Shown: positions 1,173 to 28,938, numbered from the stretch's first letter. The stretch: DNA of 32,313 nt from Candidatus Omnitrophota bacterium (GCA_013286575.1 JABDFL010000011.1:1-32313), one strand, 5' to 3'. Notes: generated by a model from the letters alone, not told the origin. A program made the numbers and translations.

Positions 1173-3497
1173 TCACGCTTTTTGTTCTTTTAAGGCTTTG
1201 ATGATTTTGTCCGGTGTAATGGGCAGCTCCTTGATGCGCACGCCAATGGCATCTTCCACGGCATTGGCGATCGCCGCTGCTGTCGGCAATAATGCCGCTT
1301 CCCCCATGCCTTTGGCGCCAAATGGCCCTTCCAGCTCATCGGTTTCAACTAATATGCTGTTCATTTTAGGCAGGCCGATGGAACGCGGCACGCGGTAACC
1401 TGCAAAATTAGCATTGAGCACCCGCCCGTTTTTAAACCTTAAATCCTCATAAAATGTATAGCCGATGCCCATGGCCAGTGAACCTTCGATCTGGCCTTCC
1501 ACTGACTGGGGGTTGATGGCTTTGCCGATATCGTGAGCGTCCCATAATTGCAGCACCTTGACGATGCCTGTGTCGGTGTCCACTTCCACTTCTGCAATCT
1601 GGGCCTCAAAACCATAGCTGCCGGAAACATTGCCCTCGCCGGAACGGAAATCAATGGGGGTTGTTTTGGGGTTATAGCTGCCGCGGCCGATGATTTGTTT
1701 GCCGTACTTGAATGAATAACAAAGCTCTAAGGCTTTATCAAAACTCATCAAAACCCGTCCATCTTTCTTGTAAATCACTTTTTCAGCCTTGATGTCCAAA
1801 TCATCAATATTCAAATCATTATCTTTGGCGACAATTTCTAAAACCTGCAGTTTCGCGTCACGGCCGCCTAAAAGCGCCGCGTTACCGGAAATAAAGGTCA
1901 CACGGCTGGCAAATGAGCCGGTGTCAAATGGGGTGATTTCCGTGTCCCCTGATTTACATTTGATACGGCTGAAGCTGACACCCAAGGCATGCGCGGCAAT
2001 CTGGGACAGTGCTGTGTTGGACCCTTGTCCTGTATCGGCCGCACCGGTAAATAAATAAACGGAACCGTCTTCTTCCACCTTCACAATAGCACCGGCGGAC
2101 TCGTGGGATTTATACATTTTGGAACCCATGACATCCGCGGCAATGCCGATGCCTATGCCGCGCTTGATGGCTTTTTGTTTGCCTCTTTTTTCTTTCCAAC
2201 CGGAGGCGATGACCGCCTTCTCAATGCATTCGCGCAATCCATTGGTCGTTAAAATCATTTTATTGACCGTTGTCATATTTGGTCCAGTGATATTTTTAAG
2301 ACGGAATTCCACCGCATCCATGCCTAAATCCTTGGCGATCATGTCCATGTGCGATTCAACGGCAAAACCGCTTTGAACACCGCCGAAACCGCGCATGGCG
2401 CCGCTGATGGGATTGTTCGTGTAGACACGATAGCCGGTCATGCGAAAATGCTGGAGTTTATAAACCATGAAAATACGCATCATGGCCGCTGCCAGGACAG
2501 TGGGCCCATAGCTGCAATAAGCCCCCCCGTCAGCTAAAACTTCACCGGTCATGGCAAGGATGGTGCCGTCTTTTTTGACGCCGGTCTTGATCTTATAAAT
2601 CATGCCGTGCTTGCGGCGGGTGGTGGTGAATTCTTCTTCACGGGTCAAAGAAATTTTAACAGGCAGGCCTCCCGCTTTTTTAGAAAGCAGGCAGGCGGCG
2701 AAATCCATGGGCAGCATTTCCAATTTTCCGCCGAAACCGCCCCCGACAGCCATTTTGATCACACGCACGTCGTTCAAATCCATCTTTAAAGTTTTAGCCA
2801 AAGCTTCCCGGCATTTGAACGGCGCCTGGGATGAAGACCACAGCGTGATCTTATTGGTAAAGGTTTCCCACTGCCCCACACAGACATGCGGTTCCATGGG
2901 CGACGGATGGGCCACAGGGCACCAGAATTTATCTTCGCGCACATGGTCTGCTTCTTTCATAAGGCGCTCAGGATTGCCGAAATTAACAGGTAAAATCAAG
3001 GCGATATTATTGAGGGATTCGTGGATTTGGGGAGCGCCGGGCTTGATGGCTTCTTCGATTTCAAATACCCCGGGAAGGATTTCATATTTGACGTCAATCA
3101 GGCGTAAAGCTTCGTCTGCTGTTTCTTCATCAATGGCGGCAACTGCAGCCACTTCGTCCCCGATATAACGCACCTTGTCCGCCTCCAGGGCCATTTGGTC
3201 AACCGTATGCGGAAAGAAATATTCATTGGAACCGAATTTAATTTGATGGGTGTCTTTGGCCGTCACGATGGCTTTTACGCCAGGCAAGGCCTCAGCCTTG
3301 GATGTGTCGATGCTGATGATGCGCGCGTGGGCATGGGGAGAACGCAGCATTTTTCCAACGAGCATATTGGCCATTTGCACGTCAAAAACATACTTTAGCT
3401 GGCCTGTGACAATCCCCCTGCCTTCGATACGGGGCACACTTTTTCCCACGGGATCAATATACTGGTCTTCAAATTTGGATTTTTTGGTCAGGGCCAT
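1173..3497 (-). CDS. xanthine dehydrogenase/CO dehydrogenase family protein, molybdopterin-binding large subunit
   Basis: 774 aa; motifs GGGFGGK, SGAMRGFGGVQSGFAVES and GAKGMGEAALLPTAAAIANAV of the molybdenum hydroxylase large subunit; adjacent to FAD and 2Fe-2S subunits. Confidence 0.95.
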   Translation of the reverse strand: MALTKKSKFEDQYIDPVGKSVPRIEGRGIVTGQLKYVFDVQMANMLVGKMLRSPHAHARIISIDTSKAEALPGVKAIVTAKDTHQIKFGSNEYFFPHTVDQMALEADKVRYIGDEVAAVAAIDEETADEALRLIDVKYEILPGVFEIEEAIKPGAPQIHESLNNIALILPVNFGNPERLMKEADHVREDKFWCPVAHPSPMEPHVCVGQWETFTNKITLWSSSQAPFKCREALAKTLKMDLNDVRVIKMAVGGGFGGKLEMLPMDFAACLLSKKAGGLPVKISLTREEEFTTTRRKHGMIYKIKTGVKKDGTILAMTGEVLADGGAYCSYGPTVLAAAMMRIFMVYKLQHFRMTGYRVYTNNPISGAMRGFGGVQSGFAVESHMDMIAKDLGMDAVEFRLKNITGPNMTTVNKMILTTNGLRECIEKAVIASGWKEKRGKQKAIKRGIGIGIAADVMGSKMYKSHESAGAIVKVEEDGSVYLFTGAADTGQGSNTALSQIAAHALGVSFSRIKCKSGDTEITPFDTGSFASRVTFISGNAALLGGRDAKLQVLEIVAKDNDLNIDDLDIKAEKVIYKKDGRVLMSFDKALELCYSFKYGKQIIGRGSYNPKTTPIDFRSGEGNVSGSYGFEAQIAEVEVDTDTGIVKVLQLWDAHDIGKAINPQSVEGQIEGSLAMGIGYTFYEDLRFKNGRVLNANFAGYRVPRSIGLPKMNSILVETDELEGPFGAKGMGEAALLPTAAAIANAVEDAIGVRIKELPITPDKIIKALKEQKA

Positions 3498-3515
3498 ATT
3501 TAGTTGTTCTTTTAG

Positions 3516-3589
3516 AGATTGCTTCGTCGGCTTCGCCTCCTCGGAATGACACTACCTTACGACTTGGAAGCAATTGAGCCTTTTGACAC
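3516..3589. repeat. palindromic element family B, copy 2
   Basis: agattgcttcgtcggcttcgcctcctcggaatgacac...gaagcaattgagccttttgacac; supplies the 3' end of the 2Fe-2S subunit gene. Confidence 0.8.
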
Positions 3590-4045
3590 TATATTTTTGC
3601 CGGCTTCGTGGATGGCTTCGAAAATCTTTGGATACCCGGCGCATCGGCAGATATTGCCGTCCAGCGCGTACTCAATTTCTTCCTGGGTCGGTTTAGGGTT
3701 CTTTTCCAGTAAAGCAACTGAGGACATGATCATGCCCGGTATGCAAAAACCGCATTGCACTGAACCGTAATCTATGAAAGCCTGCTGCACCGGGTGAAGC
3801 ACATCGCCTTGGGCCAGGCCTTCAATCGTTGTTATCTCCTCACCCTGGATATTGGCGGCCAATGTGATGCACGACAAGACTGCCTTGCCCTTGATCATGA
3901 CGGTACACGTACCGCATTCGGTTTCCTGGCAGGCGGTTTTAGTCCCGGTCAAAGACAAATGGTCCCGTAAAACTTCCAGCAGGGTTTCATTGCCTTTGAG
4001 ATTTAGGGTGTGCTGCTTTTTGTTGATTGTTAGATTTACGTTCAT
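3557..4045 (-). CDS. (2Fe-2S)-binding small subunit of molybdenum hydroxylase
   Basis: CQETECGTCTVMIKGKAVLSC plant-type ferredoxin cluster and CGFCIPGMIMS...GNICRCAGYPKI second cluster. C-terminal VSKGSIASKS is repeat-derived. Confidence 0.95.
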   Translation of the reverse strand: MNVNLTINKKQHTLNLKGNETLLEVLRDHLSLTGTKTACQETECGTCTVMIKGKAVLSCITLAANIQGEEITTIEGLAQGDVLHPVQQAFIDYGSVQCGFCIPGMIMSSVALLEKNPKPTQEEIEYALDGNICRCAGYPKIFEAIHEAGKNIVSKGSIASKS

Positions 4046-4061
4046 AAAATTAATATTCTTG

Positions 4062-4925
4062 TTATGGATTCCCGCTTTCGCGGGAATGACATAGTTCCTC
4101 GATAGCGGATTTCAGGCTGATTCTAAACATATGCTGCTTGTAATCAGTGGAACGGGTGTCATAAATGGTTTTCGTCAGGTGTTCCAAAGCTTCCTCGCCC
4201 AAGTTTGCTGAGGATGAGCTGTTATTTAGAAATTCTTCTAAAATAGGGTCCCTTTGGGCAAAAGCCACTCCATTATTGATACCGACCCTCGTATTATACC
4301 ATTTTTTCCCCTTTATTTCAGTTTTTACGCATATCGCCAATAAAGGAATGTCCACATGGATGGTTTTCTTGACACGACGGTACGCGGTCCGTGCTGCTTG
4401 CCCGGTTTTAATCGTCACATGGGTGAATAATTTTTCAGAGCGGGCGGCGTTCTTGAAAAAATCTTCCGGCGCCATAATTTCCTCTTTACCATCAGGCCCC
4501 AAAAAATGCATTTTGGCATCCAAAGCAATCATCACCGCCCCCATTTCCGTCCAGGTGTAGCGGCAGGTCAAATTACCCCCGACGGTGGCCATATTACGGA
4601 TGGGGTTGGTGGAAATATTGCGGCAAACAGCATGCAAGATCTTTAAATGGCCGTCGGGCAAAGGGCTTTCAAAAAGCTCATTGATGCGGGTCATGGCCTT
4701 GATGGTCAAGGTGTCCCCTTGAAAAGAAACACCTTTAAGCCCATCCACATGGGCCAAACTTAAAATATTGCGGGCTGTTTTAGTCCCCTTGGTCTTCAGC
4801 AATTTCATGCTGTTGAGCAAAAAGGTGCCGCCGGCCAGGACCTTGGAATCTTCCAATTCCTTATAAAGCCGGGCGGCTTCAAGGGGGGTTTTGGGCAAAT
4901 GCAGCGTCAATGGGTTCAATAACAT
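4062..4925 (-). CDS. FAD-binding middle subunit of molybdenum hydroxylase
   Basis: AGGTFLLNSMKLL, NPIRNMATVGGNL motifs of the CoxM/XdhB FAD_binding_5 family. C-terminal CHSRESGNP and stop codon lie in a palindromic repeat. Confidence 0.92.
   Translation of the reverse strand: MLLNPLTLHLPKTPLEAARLYKELEDSKVLAGGTFLLNSMKLLKTKGTKTARNILSLAHVDGLKGVSFQGDTLTIKAMTRINELFESPLPDGHLKILHAVCRNISTNPIRNMATVGGNLTCRYTWTEMGAVMIALDAKMHFLGPDGKEEIMAPEDFFKNAARSEKLFTHVTIKTGQAARTAYRRVKKTIHVDIPLLAICVKTEIKGKKWYNTRVGINNGVAFAQRDPILEEFLNNSSSSANLGEEALEHLTKTIYDTRSTDYKQHMFRISLKSAIEELCHSRESGNP
4064..4090. repeat. palindromic element family A, copy 3
   Basis: atggattcccgctttcgcgggaatgac; supplies the 3' end of the FAD subunit gene. 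Confidence 0.85.
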
Positions 4926-4989: not shown

Positions 4990-7900
4990 TTAATTCAAAT
5001 AACCCTCCCCTAACATGGCCCGGAGCATGTCAGGGGTGACTGTTACAATTTGGGAAACTTTAGGGACAACGCCATTGATGACAGGTTCTGAGGTAAGATT
5101 TTTATCCATTTCAATCCTATTTTGGAGGTCTCCGGTGATTTTTAATCGCATCAGCCGGCTGTTCATGTTAATGCCTCCCGGATTATGATCATTGCTTAAA
5201 GAACCCATTGCATTATCGCCGGCAAGCCTTAACGGAACAATCGTTTCATCCGTTATTTCCGCTACAGTCTTTTCTCTTCCTGAATCCAATATCATCCTTG
5301 CTTCTTCACTAATTGGATTAAGTCGTGTGGTGTAGACACCCGCGCTTGATATCGTAAATGCAGTATCGAAAAACCTGCCATTCCAGCTGGCTATCCTGGA
5401 CATCTCCACTCCGATTGTTTTAGCAGCGATCATTTCTCCTAAAACACCGACAGTATTGTCCATGAGCCTGATCTCATCTTTGCCGGCACCCTCCTCATGA
5501 GGGACTTTAATTTCAACGTTTAAAATTTGTGCTTTGCCTTTGATCGTCGGGCCAAATACTTCTGTTTTAGGATAAACCGTCTGGTTGACCCCCATGCTTC
5601 CTTCATTTTCTTTGTGCGCCAAAAAGAACCTTAAAATAATATCACCGGCTTTCACGGCAGAGGCATAATTGGCTGTAAAATCAATCTCGGGATCTCCCCC
5701 TAAAGGTTCTGTAGGGCCCATTAAACTAAACTTATTTGTCATGATCCGTGAAAAGAAATTCCGCTGCGTCTTATGGATGATTGCTTTAGCGGCAATAAAC
5801 AGCTGAAAAGTCCCGTATCCGCCATTTTTAGGACGGCCAATCCTTTTGCGATAAAAATTTGCCGCTAAAACAGGGACCAGGACGCTGATCCAAAAAACAT
5901 TGATCGCTACATTAAGAAGAATCCCCCAACCAAGATAATGCCCCAGTAACAAGGCCGGAGACAGTAAAACACCGGCAACAAAAAATCTCATAAACCAGGT
6001 CTTTATAAACGGCTCTAAAGCCACTTTTCCCAAATAAGTGCCCATGGCCTTGATCTTTTTGTCGGCATTTTTATATGCCTTGCCACTAATGTCATAGCCG
6101 GTCAATTCCTGTGCCATTTTAAGCGAGCCGGCTGTAATTTTGGGAGCAATGCGCTCCAGGTCTTGTGTTGGGAATTTTAAACCTATCGAATTTCGGGCAT
6201 CGTTCCTCTTTTCCAGCCGGCGCGCAAGATTAACAGCCAGCTGCTGCAGCTGAAACATCAATAAAACTTCGGATACAACGGGAGTTTCTGCGGGATAGAA
6301 TTCCCCGGTAACAAAGACGCGTTTCGTAAACTTGTCTTTTCCCGGACGCAGCCCCTGTCCGATCATGGTATTGAGGACTGAGTCGATACGGGCACCCATA
6401 CAAAAAATGTTCTTCGGATTGACCAGGGTTTTAATGATCCTCAGGGCAAGCTTGGTTGAAAATGTGGCGCCTGATTTACTGACCATCAAAATAATATCAT
6501 CCGGCTGAATATTAAATGCTGAAGGGGATTTATCAAATTCATTCGCATCAACCGGTTCAAAACTCACCTTAGAAGTATCAATCAAATCGTTCCCAATCTC
6601 TTTGAATTGTTTTGTGAGGGTATGGGAATTGTCAAAACCGATAAGCACAACGCGGGCACGCCCATTCTTTTTTATGTTGTCAGCGATACGTTCACTTAAA
6701 TAGTCTGTTGATTGCATATTAAAAGAACCGGAATCATTCCACTCTGCCCGGGCCTGGGCCAGGACCTTGGATGTATTGCGAAGGTCTTCCTGCACTATCT
6801 GGCGGGGATTATCATATTGAACGCCGGGAGGCGCATAGTAAGGGTTTATTTTTTTTACACCGTCGGCATCCACATATTCCCGGGCGGTGGGATAAAATCT
6901 TTTTTCCAGTTCTTCTTTGGTGCTTTCTTTCCATTCCCCGCTTACCCTGATCCAGGAGCGTACGATGATTTCATTCGACGGTGAAAAAGACAGCCTAACA
7001 ATTTCCCCGTCTTTTAAGTGCATGACTTCTTCAAATTCCTGCTGTCCGTCAGGGCCGATGGATTTAAGCACGCGGGGGTCTGATGCAGCGCCATAATACC
7101 CTTTTTTACGGTTTAGCCCGATAATAACGTCCTGATTGTCCTGGTAAAAAGTAATACTGTCATCCAGCGAAGAATTCATATAAAGGCCGTATGTCCCGTC
7201 AGAGCTTTCAGCAAATTCCTTGGTTGCCGCCGTATTATCGGCTGTAAAGAATTTTTCCACAGCCACATCAATAAACAGCCGGCGCATATGTTCCAAATCC
7301 ATCCCCTGCCTTTTCCATTTTTTTTCCCATTGCCTGAAAATTTTTCCGGCCAGGGTCTGCTGCCCGGCTTCTTGGGCCATTCTTTTATCCAGCATGTCCT
7401 TAAAAATTTCAATCATCCGGAACTGGTATTCTAACCCAAGTTTTCTTGCGGTTTTTTCATCCTTAACGTACAAATCATTTAAAGTCCTTACTAATTCAGG
7501 ATCGGAAGGATTATACCCGCGCCGGGAAATAAACGGCTCTACCTGATCGTACACCTCACTAAAGACACGGCCAATCATCCGGCCCTGTTTTTCAAATAAA
7601 ATATCATTTTTAGCCTCCTGCAGATCATGATGGTTGGCCATCACATGGGCATAGCGTACAGATGCAAACCAGCTGCCCTGGGTCAAATCCAGGTGCTGTT
7701 CCAAAGGAGGAATGGTGCCGTCCCCGGGGGCCATGCCGAATAAAGCATCATTGATTTGATTAAAGATTTTTTCATTATACGCAGGAAACCAGCTTTTAAA
7801 TTCTTCATCGACCCCTTTGAATTCCCGATTGACATACCCCCAGAAATTTATATATCTTTTTTTACGCAAGGCCCGCAAGACAGCCCCATAATTTGGTTTA

Positions 7901-10900
7901 AATTCTGCTTCGCTGAATCCTTTCTTAAGATACCTTATGGTGACCCTTCCGTTATAATAGGAATGCACTGCTGCGGAATAGAAACTACGCATGTCCTCAG
8001 GTTTTAACATACGTTCTTTTAAAAGCAATCTATAGGGAACCCCTATTTTGCTGCCGTCATGGTCCCCGTTAAAAGCGAAAGTTATCCGGAAATATCTGAC
8101 CACTTTTCTAAATTTATTCTGGGCTGTATCGAAAACCCAGACTTCCCTTTTTTCGTTGGGACTTGTAAACGGCTGGGCTGCTTCAGGAACCATGTCCCCG
8201 CCTGTTGCAAAACGCACATGAAACAGGAATTTTATTACCCCTGATTTGGCATAATTGTAAACAGGGACCAGCTTACGGGGCAGGGCTTTATAAAAACGGG
8301 CGTGAAGATCATCGATCATATTGCGATAAAAAACCGGATCATGCAATCTCAGCCAAAAATACCAGTTACGCAACTGTTTTGTTATTTTGATAAGCAAGGG
8401 TTTATCAGCGAGGTTTGTCGCACCGCCTGCCTGCTGTCCGCCCCGGACAGTCAGGGATTTTACATTACGAAAAAATGTATTCAGTACCGGCTTGATTTCT
8501 TTTTTTGTGATCCCCTGAGAAGCAATGCTTTTAACAAGAACGATGATGCCGCAGCCGAATTTTCCCTGGTCCGTGTCCGATGAACCTAATAAATCACCTG
8601 ATTGAACACTGCCTTTTAAAACTGCCGCAGAACTTAAAATTAATGAAGCTAAAAACGGGACTAAAAAAGGAGTTAAAAGCATCATATGTCCTGCGTATGC
8701 AGCTACGGCCATTGATCCGAATAAACCTGACCATCCAACAAGTCTATTTCTCAATTTATCCCACCAGTTCCCTTCTGCGTTAGCAAAAGGTAAATTGACA
8801 TAAGAACGGGCCACGCGCGTACCCGGCAAGAGCGATTTAAACCATTGGCCTAAACTATTATGACCCTTTAAATTGTTTCCACTCCATGCAGCGCTGATCC
8901 GGTCAGGATATAAAACGCTGGCAGCTGCAGGGTGAAATATTTCATGCAGCCATTTTTGTAACACATATAGACCGCGGGTAACAAAAGGCATGGCCAGCAG
9001 CATCCATGAAACCCCTCCATCCAAAAATATACTAAGACCAAAGCCCCCTAAACCACCTAATAAAGCGCTTATATCCATCCACCGTAAACTTTGACTGCCT
9101 AATAATGCGTCTTGAGGATCTTCCTCTGCAGGTATCGGTGGCGGCGGAGCAACTTTTCCGCTGGCCACATCACGTAATTTAGCCAAATCTTCCGCTAATA
9201 TCTGTTCTTCCCCGGATGATGCTGCCGGAGGCGGCAGAGCAACATCAAGAAGGACTTTTTGATCTGTTGGATCAGGAAAAACAGGTGGAATCCCCGAAAG
9301 CTGTGGAGATAACGGTGCCGGGCCTGCTGTATTATTGCTGGTTTTATGCGTCGATAAACCGTTTAATGTATAACCTCTTGTTCTCAAGCCTAATAGTCCC
9401 AATCCTACAGCAGTTAATACAATAGTGACCGTTCCCCATGACAGATAATTTTCATGATTCTGTTGCGCATCTTCTACTATAGGCATACTCACTGTCTGTA
9501 AATATGCCGGATGAGATAAAGCAGCTTCCTTTTCTCTTTGTTGGCGGTTACGTTTGAAGACATCTTCAGGATCCATACTATCACCTGTAGCCAGCGGGGC
9601 TGAAGGAGTAGTTATGGTTGATGTTACATTAGGACCAGGAGCATTTTCCGGCGGTAATGTTTGCCGTAATAATGCCGCCATTTCCGGGGTTGCGTGGGCA
9701 ATTCTATCTTGTCTAATTCTCCTAAAAACCGCTTCAGGATCCATTGATGCGGCCCCTGCCTCTGTTGCAGTAGAGTCAGCAGGTTGATTGTTCGGAATTA
9801 TTGGCGGTGCCACAGGTGCAGACGATGCTACAGCATTTGCAACAGGCGCGGATAATGTATGAAAAATATCAGCTTCGGGTTTAGGAGGCGGTGGCGGTGG
9901 TGATGATGCCGGAGCTGCTGCCGGCGGTGCCGGCGGAATTGGTAATGCTGCCAACGGTGCTGTTGAAACCGGCTTCACCGCCGTTGGTGTCGGTGAAACA
10001 GGTCTTGCTTGTGCTACTGGTGTCGGTAAAAACGACCTTACAGCCACTGGTGGTGCCGGTGAAACAGGCACTGCTGACGGCAACTGCTGCTGCATTTGCC
10101 GGGACACGGAAGCAGGTTTAGGAAAACGGATGGTTTGGCCGACATATATTTTATTAATATCTGTCACATTAGGATTGGAGTTTTTCATCACATAAAGAGC
10201 ATCTTTCAGGACAACGCCGTGTTCTCCAAATAAAGGATTGATCTTGTCAAATTTTTGAATGATATGCCCTAAATCAAGGTCCCCCTTTTCTACAATTCCT
10301 GCTATTTCCTCAGGATTGGAACCGGGAATTTGCTGAAAAGCATGGGCTAAAGGAGCTGCTGCAGCGAAAGCTGTTAAAACAGAAAACGAGAGAAGTATTC
10401 CGCGTGCGAATGCCCCTATTTTTTTAGAAAGCGTGATTTCATCCTGTCGGCCCTGCTGTGAAAATTTGAATATCTCCCCATCCTTACCTGTAGCTGTCAG
10501 GTCAACAGTGGCCATGGCCAAATCAGTCCCTAGCTTGATCCCGTCAGGATCAGGGGTCTCCATATACTTGGCCGAATCCGGACCAAAACCGGCAAAATAC
10601 ATCCCGCCTGATGCATATTTATGGGGTACTGTTTGCTGGGTAATGGGATCGTAATCTTCTTTAATATAGTTATAGACGCATTTTTTATAAGCTTTCAGAT
10701 ATTGCCGGAATATTTTTTCTTTTGCATCCTTATCAGCAATGTCTACTCCGGTTACTTTATTTCTCCCCACATATATCCTTCCAAGTAAGCTGTCTTTTAA
10801 ATGGCGCTTATACCAGGTCGCCAAAATCATGGCATTATAAACCTGCCTGACAACGGCAAAATTCTTTCCCTCATTGACCTCCTGGCGCAATTCAGGAAGG

Positions 10901-11631
10901 ATAACATCACGCAAAACCTCCGAATACGCCCCGGCATCCTCATAGACATGCCGGTGGTATATAAATGCTTTATAATCAGCTTCCAACATAACATCCAACC
11001 GGCTTTTGACAACAAAGGCACTGCTGCCCTGGACATATACTTCTGCGGATTCAGGGAGTATCCAGACTTTATTAAAAGTGTTGATAGGGACAGATGTCGT
11101 GCCGTAAAGTTCGTAAGCCCTGCGGTAAATTTTTTGCCAAAACCGTTTTCCTAATTCATTTCCAGGATAGCTTAAGGAAGCCATTACCTGTTTGAGCAGA
11201 TAATCCTGTTCCAGCAGATCTTTTCCCATCAGGGTAATCCCGAAATTACCAGGCACAATACGGTCTTTTTCATAGGGTGAAAGATTGACCCATAAATCCT
11301 CTTCAGGGACGGCAAGGCAGGTCAGGAAATATTTTGCCAAACGGGTAATGCCGTCTTTTAAAAACGGTCCCTGAAGACCGGAACCCCCCTTATCTACTAA
11401 AAAATCAAAACGAAGGGGATTTTTGCTGTTGACCATGATCCCTTTTAACTGTAAGGGTTCAAAAGAAGGGCTGGTGGTGACCATGGTCCCCGCAGCAGGC
11501 AATCCCATGAAGGTCTGCGCTTGGGCCACATCCCAAATGCCGGAAGAACTTAGCACAAAAGCGCTCAACAGGAAAATGATCCCGAGACGGAACAAAAGGA
11601 AATCCTTAAATGAGGAAAAACGTAAGATCAT
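4990..11631 (-). CDS. giant secreted/membrane protein (2213 aa): conserved head, internal signal-like segment, LysM-like region, Pro-rich linker, TM/HEXXH segment, GATase-II-like domain, SIS-like domain, TM pair, conserved tail
   Basis: Single uninterrupted ORF. N-terminal signal peptide; NPNVTDINKIYVGQTIRFPKP LysM-like; LHEIFHP (HEXXH); FGCGIIV...RGGQQAGGA...HVRFATGGDMVPEAAQPFTSP...FAFNGDHDG resembling GlmS-type GATase II motifs; DDIILMVSKSGATFSTKLALR resembling a SIS domain. Confidence 0.85.
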   Translation of the reverse strand: MILRFSSFKDFLLFRLGIIFLLSAFVLSSSGIWDVAQAQTFMGLPAAGTMVTTSPSFEPLQLKGIMVNSKNPLRFDFLVDKGGSGLQGPFLKDGITRLAKYFLTCLAVPEEDLWVNLSPYEKDRIVPGNFGITLMGKDLLEQDYLLKQVMASLSYPGNELGKRFWQKIYRRAYELYGTTSVPINTFNKVWILPESAEVYVQGSSAFVVKSRLDVMLEADYKAFIYHRHVYEDAGAYSEVLRDVILPELRQEVNEGKNFAVVRQVYNAMILATWYKRHLKDSLLGRIYVGRNKVTGVDIADKDAKEKIFRQYLKAYKKCVYNYIKEDYDPITQQTVPHKYASGGMYFAGFGPDSAKYMETPDPDGIKLGTDLAMATVDLTATGKDGEIFKFSQQGRQDEITLSKKIGAFARGILLSFSVLTAFAAAAPLAHAFQQIPGSNPEEIAGIVEKGDLDLGHIIQKFDKINPLFGEHGVVLKDALYVMKNSNPNVTDINKIYVGQTIRFPKPASVSRQMQQQLPSAVPVSPAPPVAVRSFLPTPVAQARPVSPTPTAVKPVSTAPLAALPIPPAPPAAAPASSPPPPPPKPEADIFHTLSAPVANAVASSAPVAPPIIPNNQPADSTATEAGAASMDPEAVFRRIRQDRIAHATPEMAALLRQTLPPENAPGPNVTSTITTPSAPLATGDSMDPEDVFKRNRQQREKEAALSHPAYLQTVSMPIVEDAQQNHENYLSWGTVTIVLTAVGLGLLGLRTRGYTLNGLSTHKTSNNTAGPAPLSPQLSGIPPVFPDPTDQKVLLDVALPPPAASSGEEQILAEDLAKLRDVASGKVAPPPPIPAEEDPQDALLGSQSLRWMDISALLGGLGGFGLSIFLDGGVSWMLLAMPFVTRGLYVLQKWLHEIFHPAAASVLYPDRISAAWSGNNLKGHNSLGQWFKSLLPGTRVARSYVNLPFANAEGNWWDKLRNRLVGWSGLFGSMAVAAYAGHMMLLTPFLVPFLASLILSSAAVLKGSVQSGDLLGSSDTDQGKFGCGIIVLVKSIASQGITKKEIKPVLNTFFRNVKSLTVRGGQQAGGATNLADKPLLIKITKQLRNWYFWLRLHDPVFYRNMIDDLHARFYKALPRKLVPVYNYAKSGVIKFLFHVRFATGGDMVPEAAQPFTSPNEKREVWVFDTAQNKFRKVVRYFRITFAFNGDHDGSKIGVPYRLLLKERMLKPEDMRSFYSAAVHSYYNGRVTIRYLKKGFSEAEFKPNYGAVLRALRKKRYINFWGYVNREFKGVDEEFKSWFPAYNEKIFNQINDALFGMAPGDGTIPPLEQHLDLTQGSWFASVRYAHVMANHHDLQEAKNDILFEKQGRMIGRVFSEVYDQVEPFISRRGYNPSDPELVRTLNDLYVKDEKTARKLGLEYQFRMIEIFKDMLDKRMAQEAGQQTLAGKIFRQWEKKWKRQGMDLEHMRRLFIDVAVEKFFTADNTAATKEFAESSDGTYGLYMNSSLDDSITFYQDNQDVIIGLNRKKGYYGAASDPRVLKSIGPDGQQEFEEVMHLKDGEIVRLSFSPSNEIIVRSWIRVSGEWKESTKEELEKRFYPTAREYVDADGVKKINPYYAPPGVQYDNPRQIVQEDLRNTSKVLAQARAEWNDSGSFNMQSTDYLSERIADNIKKNGRARVVLIGFDNSHTLTKQFKEIGNDLIDTSKVSFEPVDANEFDKSPSAFNIQPDDIILMVSKSGATFSTKLALRIIKTLVNPKNIFCMGARIDSVLNTMIGQGLRPGKDKFTKRVFVTGEFYPAETPVVSEVLLMFQLQQLAVNLARRLEKRNDARNSIGLKFPTQDLERIAPKITAGSLKMAQELTGYDISGKAYKNADKKIKAMGTYLGKVALEPFIKTWFMRFFVAGVLLSPALLLGHYLGWGILLNVAINVFWISVLVPVLAANFYRKRIGRPKNGGYGTFQLFIAAKAIIHKTQRNFFSRIMTNKFSLMGPTEPLGGDPEIDFTANYASAVKAGDIILRFFLAHKENEGSMGVNQTVYPKTEVFGPTIKGKAQILNVEIKVPHEEGAGKDEIRLMDNTVGVLGEMIAAKTIGVEMSRIASWNGRFFDTAFTISSAGVYTTRLNPISEEARMILDSGREKTVAEITDETIVPLRLAGDNAMGSLSNDHNPGGINMNSRLMRLKITGDLQNRIEMDKNLTSEPVINGVVPKVSQIVTVTPDMLRAMLGEGYLN

Positions 11632-14600
11632 ATTGATCCCAAAAGATGGTTGATCGCTGTTTGTGTCAATGGCTTGACATTTTCAATAACAGGAACCAGT
11701 CCTTCAGATTTTAATAAAACATCCAGCTGCGCCTTGTCATCAAAAGCTGTCTTTATCTCCCCTGTCCCTTTAGACTGGAGCACAACATTTTCCAAATCAA
11801 TACCGCCGTTAGGTATGGCTGCCATTGCATTATCCGGCCGGGAGATTTCTTTGATTAAATTTTTAAAGACAGGTATAAAAACAACATTGTTTTTGAAGCC
11901 GGGGTCCATGGCATTAATAAATGAATTAATTTTAGCAATCACTTCTTCCTGATGGCCAGGGGCCCTGCCTATGCGGACTATATTTTTTTCAATGGTGGTG
12001 CCGACATAGCTGCCTCGAAAACCAACCCCGTAAACCGTATAACCGTCCAATTCATTATCCACATAAGCATGCAACAACGGCCAAACCATGTCTGTCTCTT
12101 TTTTATTGCCAATGGCATTGACAAGCTCATTAAAAGCCTCCGGATGATGCGCTATAAAATCCTTGTCCTGCAAATAATGCAGGGCCTGGCGCCAGGCATC
12201 GGCCCCTCTTTTTGACAGCTGGGCCATGTACAAAATCCAGTCCTGGTTTGTGAAACCTTCCGTGTTTGTCAGCATCATTTGGGAATTCTCTCCAAGGACC
12301 TGGTACTGATCGCCATGATAGAGCAAAAATGTCCGCACTTCAGGCCCTGCACAGTGAATATCATTTTGGAACAATAATGTCACTGCCCGCAAGCGTGCGA
12401 TGGCAGCCATCTGCCTCACGGCATTTGTAGGATCGAGCAAATCTTCAAGGTCTTTTAAAGGGTCTTCATCGGCCGGCACAGCAGATATTTTCTGAGGGAC
12501 CATATTTAATGTACTGGCCAATTCCGCATATACACCGGGAATGCTATGGCCTCCCTCAACCCAAATGGGCATCTGCGGGGGAACATTCAAGAAATGAGTA
12601 TCCGTTGATGGATTGATTTCCATATTTATTCCGGCCACCAACTGCGGGTCAATGGATTTAAGAAAGACATATTGCACTCCGTCCTCAAATCTCTTGGACC
12701 TTATCTGATGTTCGAGATTTCCCCTTAAATGGTTTACGATGACATTATATTTGACGGCATCTGTCTTTTTTAAATCTTGGATAAGGTCTCTCATGCTTCG
12801 TAAAACATCCATGAAATCAGAAAGCTGCAAAGGATCGTTGGTAAAATTGGGATACATTATCCGTTGTTTTTTTGCCTCTATCGTTGGGCGCTGGGCAAGA
12901 ACATTAACGCCTTCCCAAAATAAATTGGCCGCCATTTCAGGAGGGGCATTCAAAAACAATCTCAATGCATCACTTTGCGTGACTGCACCGGGCGCATTCC
13001 TGAATTCGTCTAAATATTGCATTTCAACTTCCTTATTTTTCACTTCATTTAAAATAACCCCTCCAAGCTGTTTTTCAGCCGATGCAATGACCCTTTGAAG
13101 AAGGACCCTGTGCCCCTGATCTTCAAAATTCGGTGAATTTTTTAATATAAAATGAAGATCATATAAAGCCATGCCTGGAAAACGCAGATGCATTGAGGCC
13201 AGGCGGGTCAATACCTCTGTTAATTTTGGGTCAAATATATTAGGATTTGTAATAGCTATAATGTAATCCGTATATTCCGGTGATGAGGCTTCTTTGCCTA
13301 AATCCTGCAAAGCTAAGCGCTCCGGCTCAGAAATATCAACTGATGAAAGCTTGTCATCAATAGCTGCCTGTAACGCATCAATCCCCAATGACCTTAATGA
13401 CGACCCCATCTGATATTCATTTTTTAATGATACGGGATTTTGAAGATTTCGGTTTTTCACATAAGACAAATACGTTTCAACGATCCTGGGGGCGGCTTTT
13501 AATGTCTGGTCCTTGGTGACACCTTTTTGCTGGTCTGATCCTATAAAGCTTTTTATAACGATCTCATCCACCTTCATGGAATTTCTATTTAAAAGCCCGC
13601 TTAATAGTTCGAAGGCCAGTTTTTTGTTGCTTAATTTAAGGAACACATCGGCCATTCTGATTAAATATGCAGGGTTGCTGTATTGCTCAATGTATTTATT
13701 CATGATTGCCTCCCCTGATCCGGTATCGGAAGGTCTTTTGTAAACACTGTCAGCTTCATCAATGGCCCTGGCCGCGCTTTCAGCCGTAATACTGCCTTCG
13801 CCGCGCAAATAACCTAGAAATGTCTTTTCTGCAGATTCCCAACTGCCACCGCCACTGATGGCTGGACCTCCGGAAACAGCGGCCCTCGGACGGGCTGTAT
13901 ATCCTATAGAAGGGGCAGTACCGCCTCCTGAATTATCGGGTCTTGCAGCAACAGGGACATTTCGCGGAGCATTATTGATGGCTGCCATGAATTGGCCCTG
14001 GGTAAACCCTGTAGAGTCATTGAAGCCCGCCACCATCTCACGCCAATCGCCTTGATACTTGGCCACTAAACGGGCATCAAAATTAAGTTCGCTCCAGTAA
14101 GTAGAGGATACATTTAAAGAATTTCCTGCCGGATTAGGCATGCTAAAGACATGGGCAATGATGTCATTGACCAATGGTCTTAGCTGCACAGCGATGACAG
14201 GCAAAGCAGCAAGGGCTTTTTTCTCTAGACCATAATCACCTTTTAATTTGCTGTTCATTAAACTGTACCATTTATTGACATTATTATTGACCCCCATGGC
14301 CAGAATCACCGGTAAGTTTGCGGCAATCGCCCCGATAACCTGGGGGTCTTCATTATCGCGGATGGCATCATATAAAAATGGCAAATAAAAAGGGCCTCCT
14401 TCACTGAGGATCCTTTGAACATTGCCCTGAGGGTCCTCGCTGTTTTGTAATTGCTGCAGATAAACTTTTAAATCCCCGCTTAAAGGCATGATCCTGACCG
14501 GTGTGGAAGGCAAGCCTGTGTAAGCCTGTCTAAATTGGGCAAGTACATTATTAAAATCAGCTTCTGTGAGCGCTCCCTGCTGGACAGCAAAAAATACCAT

Positions 14601-16745
14601 CCCGAGTTTATAGTAATTCAAGACATCTGTCTGATTTCCGGCGCATTCTTTGGCCATCAGATCGATATTGTCAAAAAGATTTCCCCTATTACCGCCTGAT
14701 AAAGCAATAATGCCTTCCATGGCATGACGGACCTGCTCAATCCAATTTTGTGAGCCGACAGTGTCGGTGGGCCTGTTTTTCTGGATGAAGTCCTGGATGC
14801 TTTGGCTGACACTGGCAGCAACAGGCATATTTTGATTCCTGGCTGCTGAAAGCATGGTGTTATAAACAGTCAGATCATTGGGCTGGGGAGTTTCAGACAA
14901 ATATTTGCTGATCATATCTTGATGGTACCCGCTTGATTTGGGAATGGCTAAAAACACCAAAGCCGCTGCCCTGGCAACAATTCTTCTTGGATCATGTAAT
15001 TTGTCCTGAACATGGGCAAGCCCGGAAATGTTATGGCTTGATAAAAAACCGCCGGATGCCCCGCCTTTTTGGACCATTAATGCAACGACCATCAGCCTGG
15101 CCGCTTCCACGGAAGCGTTAGGGTCATCTGTATTAATCAACCGTTCAAAAATCCCGGTTTGAAAAAATCTCTGCATGAGCGTCGAGGACGGGACCTGATT
15201 GGAAAGCGTGTATTTGGTCAATAAATACTTCGCAGCTGCCAAGCGCAATTCCTGGGAAGTAACATTATTGGCGTTTTTCAGATCTAAAACAAAGTTACCG
15301 ATAAGATTGAGAATGCTTACCGGGACAGCCGCTGATATATTGGGAAAAGACATTGTCGTATTGGTCAATATGTCCAGGGCCTTATCGTAAGACCCTCCTT
15401 TACTTAAACTCAAACACAGGGCAGCATATTCATCCAGGCTGTCGTCACTAAAATACCTTTCATCAGTCAGTCTGTTAAAAGCTTGCGCGGCTGCTGTTGG
15501 GTCCCCGCTTCCGTAAGCTGCCCCCCGGATAATGCTTAAATCCTGCGGGGCAACAGACTGTTGATAAATTTGCTGTGCCTGTGCCAGCACGGGTTGGGCT
15601 GTAGAAATAAGAGTTAGGGCCAAAAAAACCCTGGCAATTAAAAAATTCTTTTTTCTAAAACCAGCCGCGGCCATGGCTTTATTAGTAGTAGTGACTTCAT
15701 GAAGGGCGCCTCCGAAAAAACCGCCGGAGAAATATTTTCGCGGGACAATGCTTTGGCTGGCTTCATCAAAATCTTCTTTAATAAAATTAAAAACGCCTTT
15801 TTTGTAGGCCCTTAAGTATTGATCGTAAATTTCAGAGACCCGTTGTTTATCACGGCTGTCAATGCCCTTGATCTTATTGCGGTCAATGTATCCTTTGGCA
15901 ATAATGTTATTTCTTAAATGGTCTTTGTACCATTTGGCCAAGATCAGGGAATTGTACACCTGGCGCAAGGGCGCAAAATTCTTTCCCTCATTGACTTCTT
16001 TTTCCAGGGCAGGGATCACCAGTTCTTTTATTACGGCCGCAGACAAAGTGCCTGTGCCGGTTTCTGTGACCGCAGCTGTATTAAAACGAAATTTATTTTT
16101 ATTTGCGGCCAAATAATCTTTTTCCAGCATTACCTTCAAAGAACTGTCTGCCACAAAAACCGCATTCATTTTTGTATTTTCATACACCACTGCCTTGTCA
16201 GGAACGATCCATACCTTATTAAAAGTGTTAAATGGGATATTGGTGGTGCCGAATTTTATCAACGCTTGCTTGTAAATTTTTTGCCAGAATTCACGGCCCA
16301 GTTGGCGCTCAGGATAAAGGGCCGTGGCCATGATCTGCTTGAGCATATAATCCTGGGCCAGCAAATTTTGCCCCATCAGCGTTTTCCCAAAAAATTCCGG
16401 AACGATCCTGTTTTTTTCAAATGGGGATAAATTGACCCAGATCTCTTTTTCAGGGGTGGTCAATGATGCCAGGAAATAAGCGGCTATCTTTTGGCTTTGT
16501 GCCTTTGCCTGCCCTTTGTTTAAATGAGCATCCCCTTCATCCAGAATAAAATCAAATTTAAACGGATTTTCAGGATGAAAAATAATCCCTTTAAGGGTTG
16601 CCTTGTTGAATTTAGGGCTGAAATCAACCATGTGTCCGGGGGCAGGCAAATCAATAATGCTTTGGGCAGAGGCATCAGGAAGCGGACCTACGGAGGTAAA
16701 TAAAAAAACTGTCAGGATCAAGCGGGCGATAAGTTTAGTAAACAT
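11628..16745 (-). CDS. giant secreted protein (about 1705 aa) with the same head and tail modules and an alpha-helical, HEAT/TPR-like middle
   Basis: The track starts at a TTG (16757); the ATG at 16743-16745 follows GAGG with 6 nt spacing and fits better. N-terminal signal peptide, head closely matching the downstream giant protein; stop overlaps the next start as ATGA. Confidence 0.85.
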   Translation of the reverse strand: MFTKLIARLILTVFLFTSVGPLPDASAQSIIDLPAPGHMVDFSPKFNKATLKGIIFHPENPFKFDFILDEGDAHLNKGQAKAQSQKIAAYFLASLTTPEKEIWVNLSPFEKNRIVPEFFGKTLMGQNLLAQDYMLKQIMATALYPERQLGREFWQKIYKQALIKFGTTNIPFNTFNKVWIVPDKAVVYENTKMNAVFVADSSLKVMLEKDYLAANKNKFRFNTAAVTETGTGTLSAAVIKELVIPALEKEVNEGKNFAPLRQVYNSLILAKWYKDHLRNNIIAKGYIDRNKIKGIDSRDKQRVSEIYDQYLRAYKKGVFNFIKEDFDEASQSIVPRKYFSGGFFGGALHEVTTTNKAMAAAGFRKKNFLIARVFLALTLISTAQPVLAQAQQIYQQSVAPQDLSIIRGAAYGSGDPTAAAQAFNRLTDERYFSDDSLDEYAALCLSLSKGGSYDKALDILTNTTMSFPNISAAVPVSILNLIGNFVLDLKNANNVTSQELRLAAAKYLLTKYTLSNQVPSSTLMQRFFQTGIFERLINTDDPNASVEAARLMVVALMVQKGGASGGFLSSHNISGLAHVQDKLHDPRRIVARAAALVFLAIPKSSGYHQDMISKYLSETPQPNDLTVYNTMLSAARNQNMPVAASVSQSIQDFIQKNRPTDTVGSQNWIEQVRHAMEGIIALSGGNRGNLFDNIDLMAKECAGNQTDVLNYYKLGMVFFAVQQGALTEADFNNVLAQFRQAYTGLPSTPVRIMPLSGDLKVYLQQLQNSEDPQGNVQRILSEGGPFYLPFLYDAIRDNEDPQVIGAIAANLPVILAMGVNNNVNKWYSLMNSKLKGDYGLEKKALAALPVIAVQLRPLVNDIIAHVFSMPNPAGNSLNVSSTYWSELNFDARLVAKYQGDWREMVAGFNDSTGFTQGQFMAAINNAPRNVPVAARPDNSGGGTAPSIGYTARPRAAVSGGPAISGGGSWESAEKTFLGYLRGEGSITAESAARAIDEADSVYKRPSDTGSGEAIMNKYIEQYSNPAYLIRMADVFLKLSNKKLAFELLSGLLNRNSMKVDEIVIKSFIGSDQQKGVTKDQTLKAAPRIVETYLSYVKNRNLQNPVSLKNEYQMGSSLRSLGIDALQAAIDDKLSSVDISEPERLALQDLGKEASSPEYTDYIIAITNPNIFDPKLTEVLTRLASMHLRFPGMALYDLHFILKNSPNFEDQGHRVLLQRVIASAEKQLGGVILNEVKNKEVEMQYLDEFRNAPGAVTQSDALRLFLNAPPEMAANLFWEGVNVLAQRPTIEAKKQRIMYPNFTNDPLQLSDFMDVLRSMRDLIQDLKKTDAVKYNVIVNHLRGNLEHQIRSKRFEDGVQYVFLKSIDPQLVAGINMEINPSTDTHFLNVPPQMPIWVEGGHSIPGVYAELASTLNMVPQKISAVPADEDPLKDLEDLLDPTNAVRQMAAIARLRAVTLLFQNDIHCAGPEVRTFLLYHGDQYQVLGENSQMMLTNTEGFTNQDWILYMAQLSKRGADAWRQALHYLQDKDFIAHHPEAFNELVNAIGNKKETDMVWPLLHAYVDNELDGYTVYGVGFRGSYVGTTIEKNIVRIGRAPGHQEEVIAKINSFINAMDPGFKNNVVFIPVFKNLIKEISRPDNAMAAIPNGGIDLENVVLQSKGTGEIKTAFDDKAQLDVLLKSEGLVPVIENVKPLTQTAINHLLGSI

Positions 16746-16759
16746 AAGCAGCCTCAAAT

Positions 16760-16801
16760 AAAAAACCCAATAATCTTCCCTGGCCGGGAAAAATTATTGG
16801 G
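16760..16801 (-). terminator. terminator-like hairpin 2 with U-tract, directly upstream of the RBS of the 1705 aa gene
   Basis: Minus-strand RNA: CCCAATAATTTTTCCC-ggcca-GGGAAGATTATTGGG followed by TTTTTTATTT then GAGGCTGCTTATG. Confidence 0.65.
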
Positions 16802-16851
16802 CTGCAGCGTCCAATATATTTACGCGCTTCTGTGTGCGTAATTACTTAAAT

Positions 16852-16886
16852 AAAAAACCCAATGTCTCTGATTTCGAGTCATTGGG
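16852..16886 (-). terminator. terminator-like hairpin 1 with U-tract in the same leader
   Basis: Minus-strand RNA: CCCAATGaCTC-gaaatca-GAGaCATTGGG followed by TTTTTTATTT. Confidence 0.6.
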
Positions 16887-16954
16887 CACCATTGTCCAAG
16901 ATTGTTTTTCTGACATCCTTGCCAGAAATCCATTACTATTTATCGAACATTGGA

Positions 16955-28860: not shown

Positions 28861-28938
28861 TGGTCGGGACGGTGGGGCTTGAACCCACGACCTCTTGTAC
28901 CCCATACAAGTGCGCTAATCCAACTGCGCTACGTCCCG
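28861..28938 (-). tRNA. tRNA-Pro (anticodon GGG), CCA encoded
   Basis: Minus strand CGGGACG TA GCGC AGTTGGATTA GCGC A CTTGT ATGGGGT ACAAG AGGTC GTGGG TTCAAGC CCCAC CGTCCCG A CCA; all four stems pair. Confidence 0.95.

Follow-up and report, generated by a model that had tools for sequence, protein, structure and literature searches.

Glucosamine is made from glutamine by GlmS, a textbook example of a soluble enzyme. In a giant gene of an uncultured Candidatus Omnitrophota bacterium, this enzyme, in a remote version, seems to have been relocated into the envelope for a new use. The gene lies on contig C11 of a genome that is 52% complete (GCA_013286575.1 JABDFL010000011.1:1-32313; the whole 32,313 nucleotides are hereafter the window) and its open reading frame (ORF) encodes 2213 amino acids (aa), of which residues 1027-2110 are a GlmS/GFAT-type unit made up of a class-II glutaminase (GATase II), an SIS domain (SIS1), a transmembrane (TM) hairpin and a second SIS fold (SIS2). 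Like GlmS/GFAT (TIGR01135), the giant protein has the GATase II-SIS-SIS order, the glutaminase residues, the S-x-SG-x-T of SIS1 and the overall fold. Unlike GlmS/GFAT, it is a membrane protein with an internal Cys, a large helical insert in the GATase, a TM hairpin between the SIS domains and apparent loss of the isomerase residues, and it falls below the detection of the family model. Giant ORFs are described from the same phylum, and the part of Seymour et al. 2023 (PMC10066038) drawn on here likewise reports large TM proteins with few annotated domains, calls their roles poorly understood and makes no mention of a GATase/SIS unit or of the N-terminal domain (N-domain), GGIDL C-terminal domain and [D/N]xAM motif considered below.

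Searches with the single sequence gave little: one sub-threshold SIS match in Pfam (E 0.0097), nothing at E<=1 among the NCBIfam models, with the TIGR01135 cut-off not reached, and no phmmer match in the PDB. Several genera have full-length counterparts and other genera more distant ones, all in metagenome-assembled genomes of Candidatus Omnitrophota, and the homologues were aligned into a 14-row profile, A1. In the PDB, this profile matched human GFAT1 at E 1.3e-6, and its GATase and SIS parts aligned in the correct order. Run over 392 genomes of the phylum, it returned about ten more giant ORFs of 1230-10142 aa; GlmS ORFs of the ordinary kind (~610 aa) also came up by the dozen at E<1e-3, unprompted. 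A search for related loci with the same 14 aligned rows gave no conserved stretch. Compared by hhalign with 31 Omnitrophota GlmS sequences, two GATase segments (E 5.6e-6 and 6.4e-6) and SIS1 (E 2e-4) aligned significantly and SIS2 did not (E 0.45). An AlphaFold (AF2) model of residues 1015-2112, built from nine sequences (pLDDT 76, pTM 0.72), had full-length GFAT1 as its top PDB match (E 8.8e-14, TM-score 0.61 on the target, ~1100 columns), matched E. coli GlmS at E 3.6e-11 over ~1100 columns, and had many double-SIS enzymes next. Taken together, the profile, hhalign and structure matches establish GlmS homology, second SIS fold included. A sequence-only reading had already noticed GlmS-type GATase II and SIS motifs in this part of the protein; they are where it put them, with the Cys1027 codon at 8551-8553 and SIS1 ending near 6142, the match is beyond chance, and the profile and structure searches both return the pair. 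SIS-like matches also occur within ORFs of 18668 and 10142 aa (G045:C43 35668-36156 and G078:C30, respectively).

The glutaminase site is strictly kept. Cys1027, Gly1028, Arg1063, Gly1064, Gly1069, His1138, Arg1140, Thr1143, Asn1188, Gly1189, Asp1190 and Asp1304 are invariant in 13/13 aligned homologues, as the sequence-only reading had proposed checking, and the same set is nearly invariant in those distant giants that cover the GATase region, although these were added to the alignment at fixed length and their weak rows need cautious reading. By motif, we take the invariant set to be C1, G2, R26, G27, G32, H71, R73, T76, N98, G99 and D123 of E. coli GlmS; Asp1190 is an extra invariant Asp beyond these. 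The protein has the fold and the Cys, Arg, His, Asn-Gly and Asp of a GATase II. In SIS1, S1718, S1720, G1721 and T1723 are kept in 13/14 or 14/14 sequences and form the S-x-SG-x-T sugar-phosphate motif. SIS2 is different. Its well-conserved residues are Arg, Gly, Ser, Gln, Ala, Val, Thr and Pro, and no invariant Glu, Lys or His was found in it across the aligned homologues, SIS2 being aligned by fold and not by sequence. The isomerase residues of E. coli GlmS are E488, H504 and K603; the conserved C-terminal V-x-T-T motif has no Lys, and the SIS2 helix expected to carry E488 has no Glu. With the caveat of a fold-based alignment, the residues for ring opening and isomerization are probably gone. 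Since neither these residues nor TIGR01135 matched, we do not file the giant protein as a GlmS.

The giant gene, its parts, and the operon gene and leader before it are as follows.

4990-11631, minus strand: giant ORF, 2213 aa
11512-11631, minus strand: N-terminal signal peptide, residues 1-40, by topology analysis and sequence
10597-11514, minus strand: N-domain, residues 40-345, common to at least 21 other large ORFs of the genome
10513-10524, minus strand: DLAM, a [D/N]xAM linker between N-domain and passenger
10336-10419, minus strand: second signal-peptide-like segment, residues 405-432, N-in/C-out by charge
10117-10329, minus strand: LysM-like stretch, residues 435-505, by sequence pattern only and with no Pfam match
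9385-9444, minus strand: TM segment, residues 730-749, N-out/C-in
8587-9084, minus strand: membrane M50-like HExxH domain (H896, E897, H900, N920, D1013)
6952-8553, minus strand: GATase II domain, residues 1027-1560, with Cys1027; a helical insert of more than 100 aa separates its two halves
6142-6714, minus strand: SIS1, residues 1640-1830, with S1718-K-S1720-G-A-T1723
5851-5985, minus strand: TM hairpin from SIS1 to SIS2, residues 1883-1927
5302-5829, minus strand: SIS2-like fold, residues 1935-2110, by fold match only and with no invariant Glu, Lys or His
5206-5217, minus strand: DNAM, the second [D/N]xAM motif
4993-5178, minus strand: GGIDL-type C-terminal domain, residues 2152-2213
11628-16757, minus strand: upstream gene of the same operon, 1709 aa, with N-domain, second signal-like segment, alpha-helical repeat-like middle and GGIDL C-domain
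16848-16939, minus strand: leader unit 1, ANTAR-target-like, with P1 hexaloop AAGGAU and P2 UUGGAC-AAUGGU-GCCCAA overlapping a terminator
16753-16817, minus strand: leader unit 2, a second P2/terminator, from direct and inverted repeats and the hexaloop count

The sequence-only reading did not include SIS2, which runs to ~5302, the HExxH membrane domain at 8587-9084, the shared terminal domains or the leader RNA.

Membrane orientation was read from charge. In most homologues, 3-6 positive charges precede segment 413-432 and few follow it (N-in/C-out), TM segment 730-749 has the reverse pattern (N-out/C-in), the membrane domain preceding the GATase adds a hairpin in this protein and several homologues, and the TM pair 1883-1902/1908-1927 has charges beyond both ends. 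This charge bias would put the GATase, SIS1 and SIS2 in the cytoplasm and residues 433-729 (LysM-like, Pro-rich) outside, so that the protein would be membrane-anchored and not exported. The earlier description of the pair as membrane-embedded agrees with the membrane segments; its placement inside an exported protein does not, as only the region after the second signal-like segment would be outside. The predicted structure of the N-terminal half has low overall confidence and no PDB match.

Directly before the glutaminase Cys, residues 850-1015 contain HEIFH, and H896, E897, H900, N920 and D1013 are invariant across eleven homologues. As in site-2 protease/M50 enzymes, the HExxH (H896, E897, H900) lies by a membrane helix and is followed by a conserved Asp (D1013), here 14 residues from Cys1027. 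Unlike those enzymes, the domain is fused to an amidotransferase, its Pfam support is weak (Peptidase_M50B, E 1.1e-4, in 1/11 members), and HExxxH, for example HEVLGH, replaces HExxH in five homologues of the close set (L097-L101); no relative was found in the PDB. In class-II amidotransferases, a few residues before the Cys are described as being removed autocatalytically (PMC9140057), and on this precedent processing before Cys1027 would be expected.

The operon begins with a leader RNA (16753-16939) in which the 3' arm of the P2 hairpin is also the 5' arm of the terminator; the fold z-score of 16752-16920 is -3.55. Comparable leaders stand ahead of the GlmS-like gene in ten other genomes. 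The P2 hexaloops have G4 in 21/21 and A1 in 16/21 units, with G1 in a minority, and the P1 hexaloops have G4 in 9/9 and A1 in 8/9. This is the published A1/G4 rule for ANTAR-target RNAs; most such RNAs belong to nitrogen genes (PMC3369931). Like ANTAR-target RNAs (EutV, NasR, AmiR), the leader has two A1/G4 hexaloop hairpins, the second overlapping an intrinsic terminator, and belongs with nitrogen genes; unlike the known ones, it apparently serves a new regulon member, goes with a GAF-GAF-ANTAR protein and has no match in Rfam. A covariance model (R1), built from nine GlmS-like leaders and no others, scores the leader of this operon, itself a training member, at 53.2 bits (E 2.9e-9), and recovers the untrained GlmS-like leaders L096 and L172. 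Over 33 genomes, R1 matched at seven places other than GlmS-like leaders, one of them in G018. With gene names read from sequence, one match precedes amtB-glnK-GSIII in G037 and others precede nirB-type operons (nirB/nirD/nitrate transport) in G006, G043, G045 and G038, G045 having two R1 units, one ahead of a PAS-type gene adjoining nirB. These matches point to nitrogen control of the giant operon, and an RNA switch common to nitrogen-assimilation genes appears to control the giant gene. In the genome itself, where the cluster was named by Pfam, a GAF-GAF-ANTAR gene precedes amtB-glnK-GSIII (G000:C6), and the leaders of this cluster, read by eye, pair terminators with hexaloops of the form AnnGnn. 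Of 39 relatives, 33 carry ANTAR genes. Paralogues show no such leader ahead of them, which rules it out as a feature of N-domain genes at large. ANTAR-like leaders were also seen ahead of nirB-type and amtB operons in other Omnitrophota (L238, L240-L243), and L221 (1273-7933) holds a cluster of GAF-GAF-ANTAR, amtB, PII, type III glutamine synthetase and class-I GATase genes with ANTAR-like leaders.

On balance, we think it somewhat probable that the unit is a GlmS-derived, membrane-anchored, nitrogen-regulated glutamine amidotransferase. Direct support comes from the GATase II-SIS-TM-SIS homology, the invariant glutaminase residues, the phosphate-binding motif of SIS1, the membrane segments and the ANTAR-target-like leader; the product of the giant enzyme and the step that exposes its Cys we infer. 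In the model that we propose, the GATase, SIS1 and SIS2 would all lie on the cytoplasmic side with the inner membrane as their anchor, and the LysM-like/Pro-rich loop would tether the protein to the periplasm or wall. The chain would be cut before Cys1027, by autoprocessing of the N-terminal nucleophile type or with help from the adjacent M50-like domain, leaving a free N-terminal nucleophile. The GATase would then hydrolyze glutamine and hand ammonia to the SIS module, which may bind a sugar phosphate and either aminate it at the membrane for an envelope glycan or let its binding gate the glutaminase. ANTAR antitermination would govern transcription of the giant gene along with that of the genes for ammonium and nitrite assimilation, and such joint control would make the enzyme part of nitrogen management. 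If so, GlmS rebuilt as a membrane giant, with its glutaminase intact, isomerase residues dropped and nitrogen antitermination added, offers a testable case of enzyme repurposing and would give a first function for a class of giant proteins.

Several observations weigh against this proposal. The ORF has 1026 residues ahead of the nucleophile, and release of the internal Cys1027 by cleavage is a prediction. The M50-like domain has been lost in L093-L096 and so is not generally required. The SIS2 assignment depends on predicted structure, and its lack of invariant Glu, Lys and His makes GlmS-type isomerization there unlikely. Topology is uncertain, as two consecutive signal-like segments have no membrane exit between them; the conflict of a signal peptide and N-domain preceding another N-in segment is a real one, to be avoided only if the N-domain is split off or if the second segment goes into the membrane contrary to its charge bias. 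The amtB leader of this genome was read by eye and has no R1 match. Homologues of the giant ORF occur in at least 12 other genomes of the same order, and the family is patchy, matching in 18/86 genomes of the order, 2 of them solely through ordinary GlmS. Finally, the genome also carries a normal, canonical GlmS, and all relatives searched have a GlmS match, which rules out the giant protein as a GlmS replacement.

Three other explanations were considered. The absence of invariant catalytic candidates from SIS2, the membrane metalloprotease-like domain, the predicted periplasmic LysM-like/Pro-rich loop and the nitrogen-type leader would all suit a glutamine/sugar-phosphate sensor, which would relay nutrient state across the membrane through glutamine hydrolysis and ligand binding by the SIS module; what the enzyme makes would then be beside the point, and proteolysis by the M50-like domain may be part of the signaling. 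We regard this as unlikely, if far from negligible: a strictly conserved, full glutaminase site favors turnover, the M50-like domain is dispensable in some members, and no gene neighborhood or partner gene kept across genera was found. The sequence-only reading suggested a role in amino-sugar metabolism, which is possible, but the GlmS isomerase residues are not kept and the leader points to nitrogen/glutamine management. In its strict form, this role would be that of a genuine second GlmS, one that is bound to the membrane and makes glucosamine-6-phosphate for envelope synthesis, with unrecognized equivalents in place of the SIS2 residues. Domain order and fold are alike, and canonical glmS adjoins the giant gene in three genomes, all of one genus; the missing Lys and Glu of SIS2 and the canonical GlmS of the same genomes make it improbable.

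The least likely explanation that we considered, and to our minds a very doubtful one, is predation or host-interaction cargo, in which the N-domain would display or deliver the enzyme along with many other passengers. A predation role has been proposed for Omnitrophota giant proteins (PMC12419801, and the part of PMC10066038 used here), and the N-domain with its signal peptide heads tens of proteins with varied passengers, but the charge topology would keep the catalytic part in the cytoplasm, the leader is of nitrogen type, and several passengers (HTH, UDPGP) look cytosolic.

Whatever its role, the N-domain (~305 aa, with signal peptide) is shared widely, with a mean identity of 54% among its copies in the genome; two relatives have 44 and 60 matches, some partial, and no Pfam or PDB relative was found. 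Copies in the window are at 10597-11514 and 15720-16661, and others are in L174-L192. Passengers on these ORFs include PLD plus phosphoribosyltransferase-like, UDPGP, HTH and HEAT domains. Most N-domain ORFs end in the GGIDL C-domain (~60 aa, GGIDL...GFxPVIINIxP), with 28 matches in the genome and window copies at 4993-5178 and 11631-11807. At the joints of these ORFs, in the window and in L174-L192, [D/N]xAM tetrapeptides are about ninefold enriched. In 22 ORFs, [D/N/S]xAM was counted 98 times vs 10.5 expected; D-x-A-M occurs 70 times, as against 0 in 5778 aa of the window's housekeeping proteins, and D-x-[AS]-[MQ] is the top-enriched pattern in another genus. In the giant ORF, [D/N]xAM occurs twice, at 370 and 2139, flanking the whole passenger, and is a candidate processing site by its pattern. 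A DNA-level element is ruled out, as the flanking bases are unconserved and the D and x codons free; for the Ala, GCG is favored and GCT disfavored. It is tempting to speculate, although we hold it rather doubtful, that the Omnitrophota have an undescribed system resembling polyproteins, with the GlmS-like enzyme among its passengers, in which an exported N-domain, passengers and GGIDL C-domain are cut at [D/N]-x-A-M joints (D-x-[AS]-[MQ] in the other genus), freeing each passenger with a fresh N-terminus. Such a system, tentative as it is, might comprise tens of genes per genome, each with one or more unrelated passengers having their own targeting signals or none. The distant giants of other lineages have no detectable N- or C-domains, so the GlmS-like core seems independent of both. 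The shared domains and linker motif offer a way into the tens of proteins per genome that have no annotation. Internal signal-peptide-like segments follow the N-domain in L185, L186, L187, L188, L177 and the window gene at 11628-16757, one such segment being Tat-like (TRREALGLAAATIATTAFLPTPVKA), and in L177 a c-di-GMP-I riboswitch (59.8 bits; 2972-3062, minus strand) lies directly upstream of an N-domain gene.

The stop of the 1709-aa upstream gene overlaps the start of the giant ORF (ATGA), by which the giant gene is translationally coupled to it. Downstream, three genes at window 1173-4925 encode a xanthine-dehydrogenase-type molybdoenzyme, and a tRNA lies at 28864-28938.

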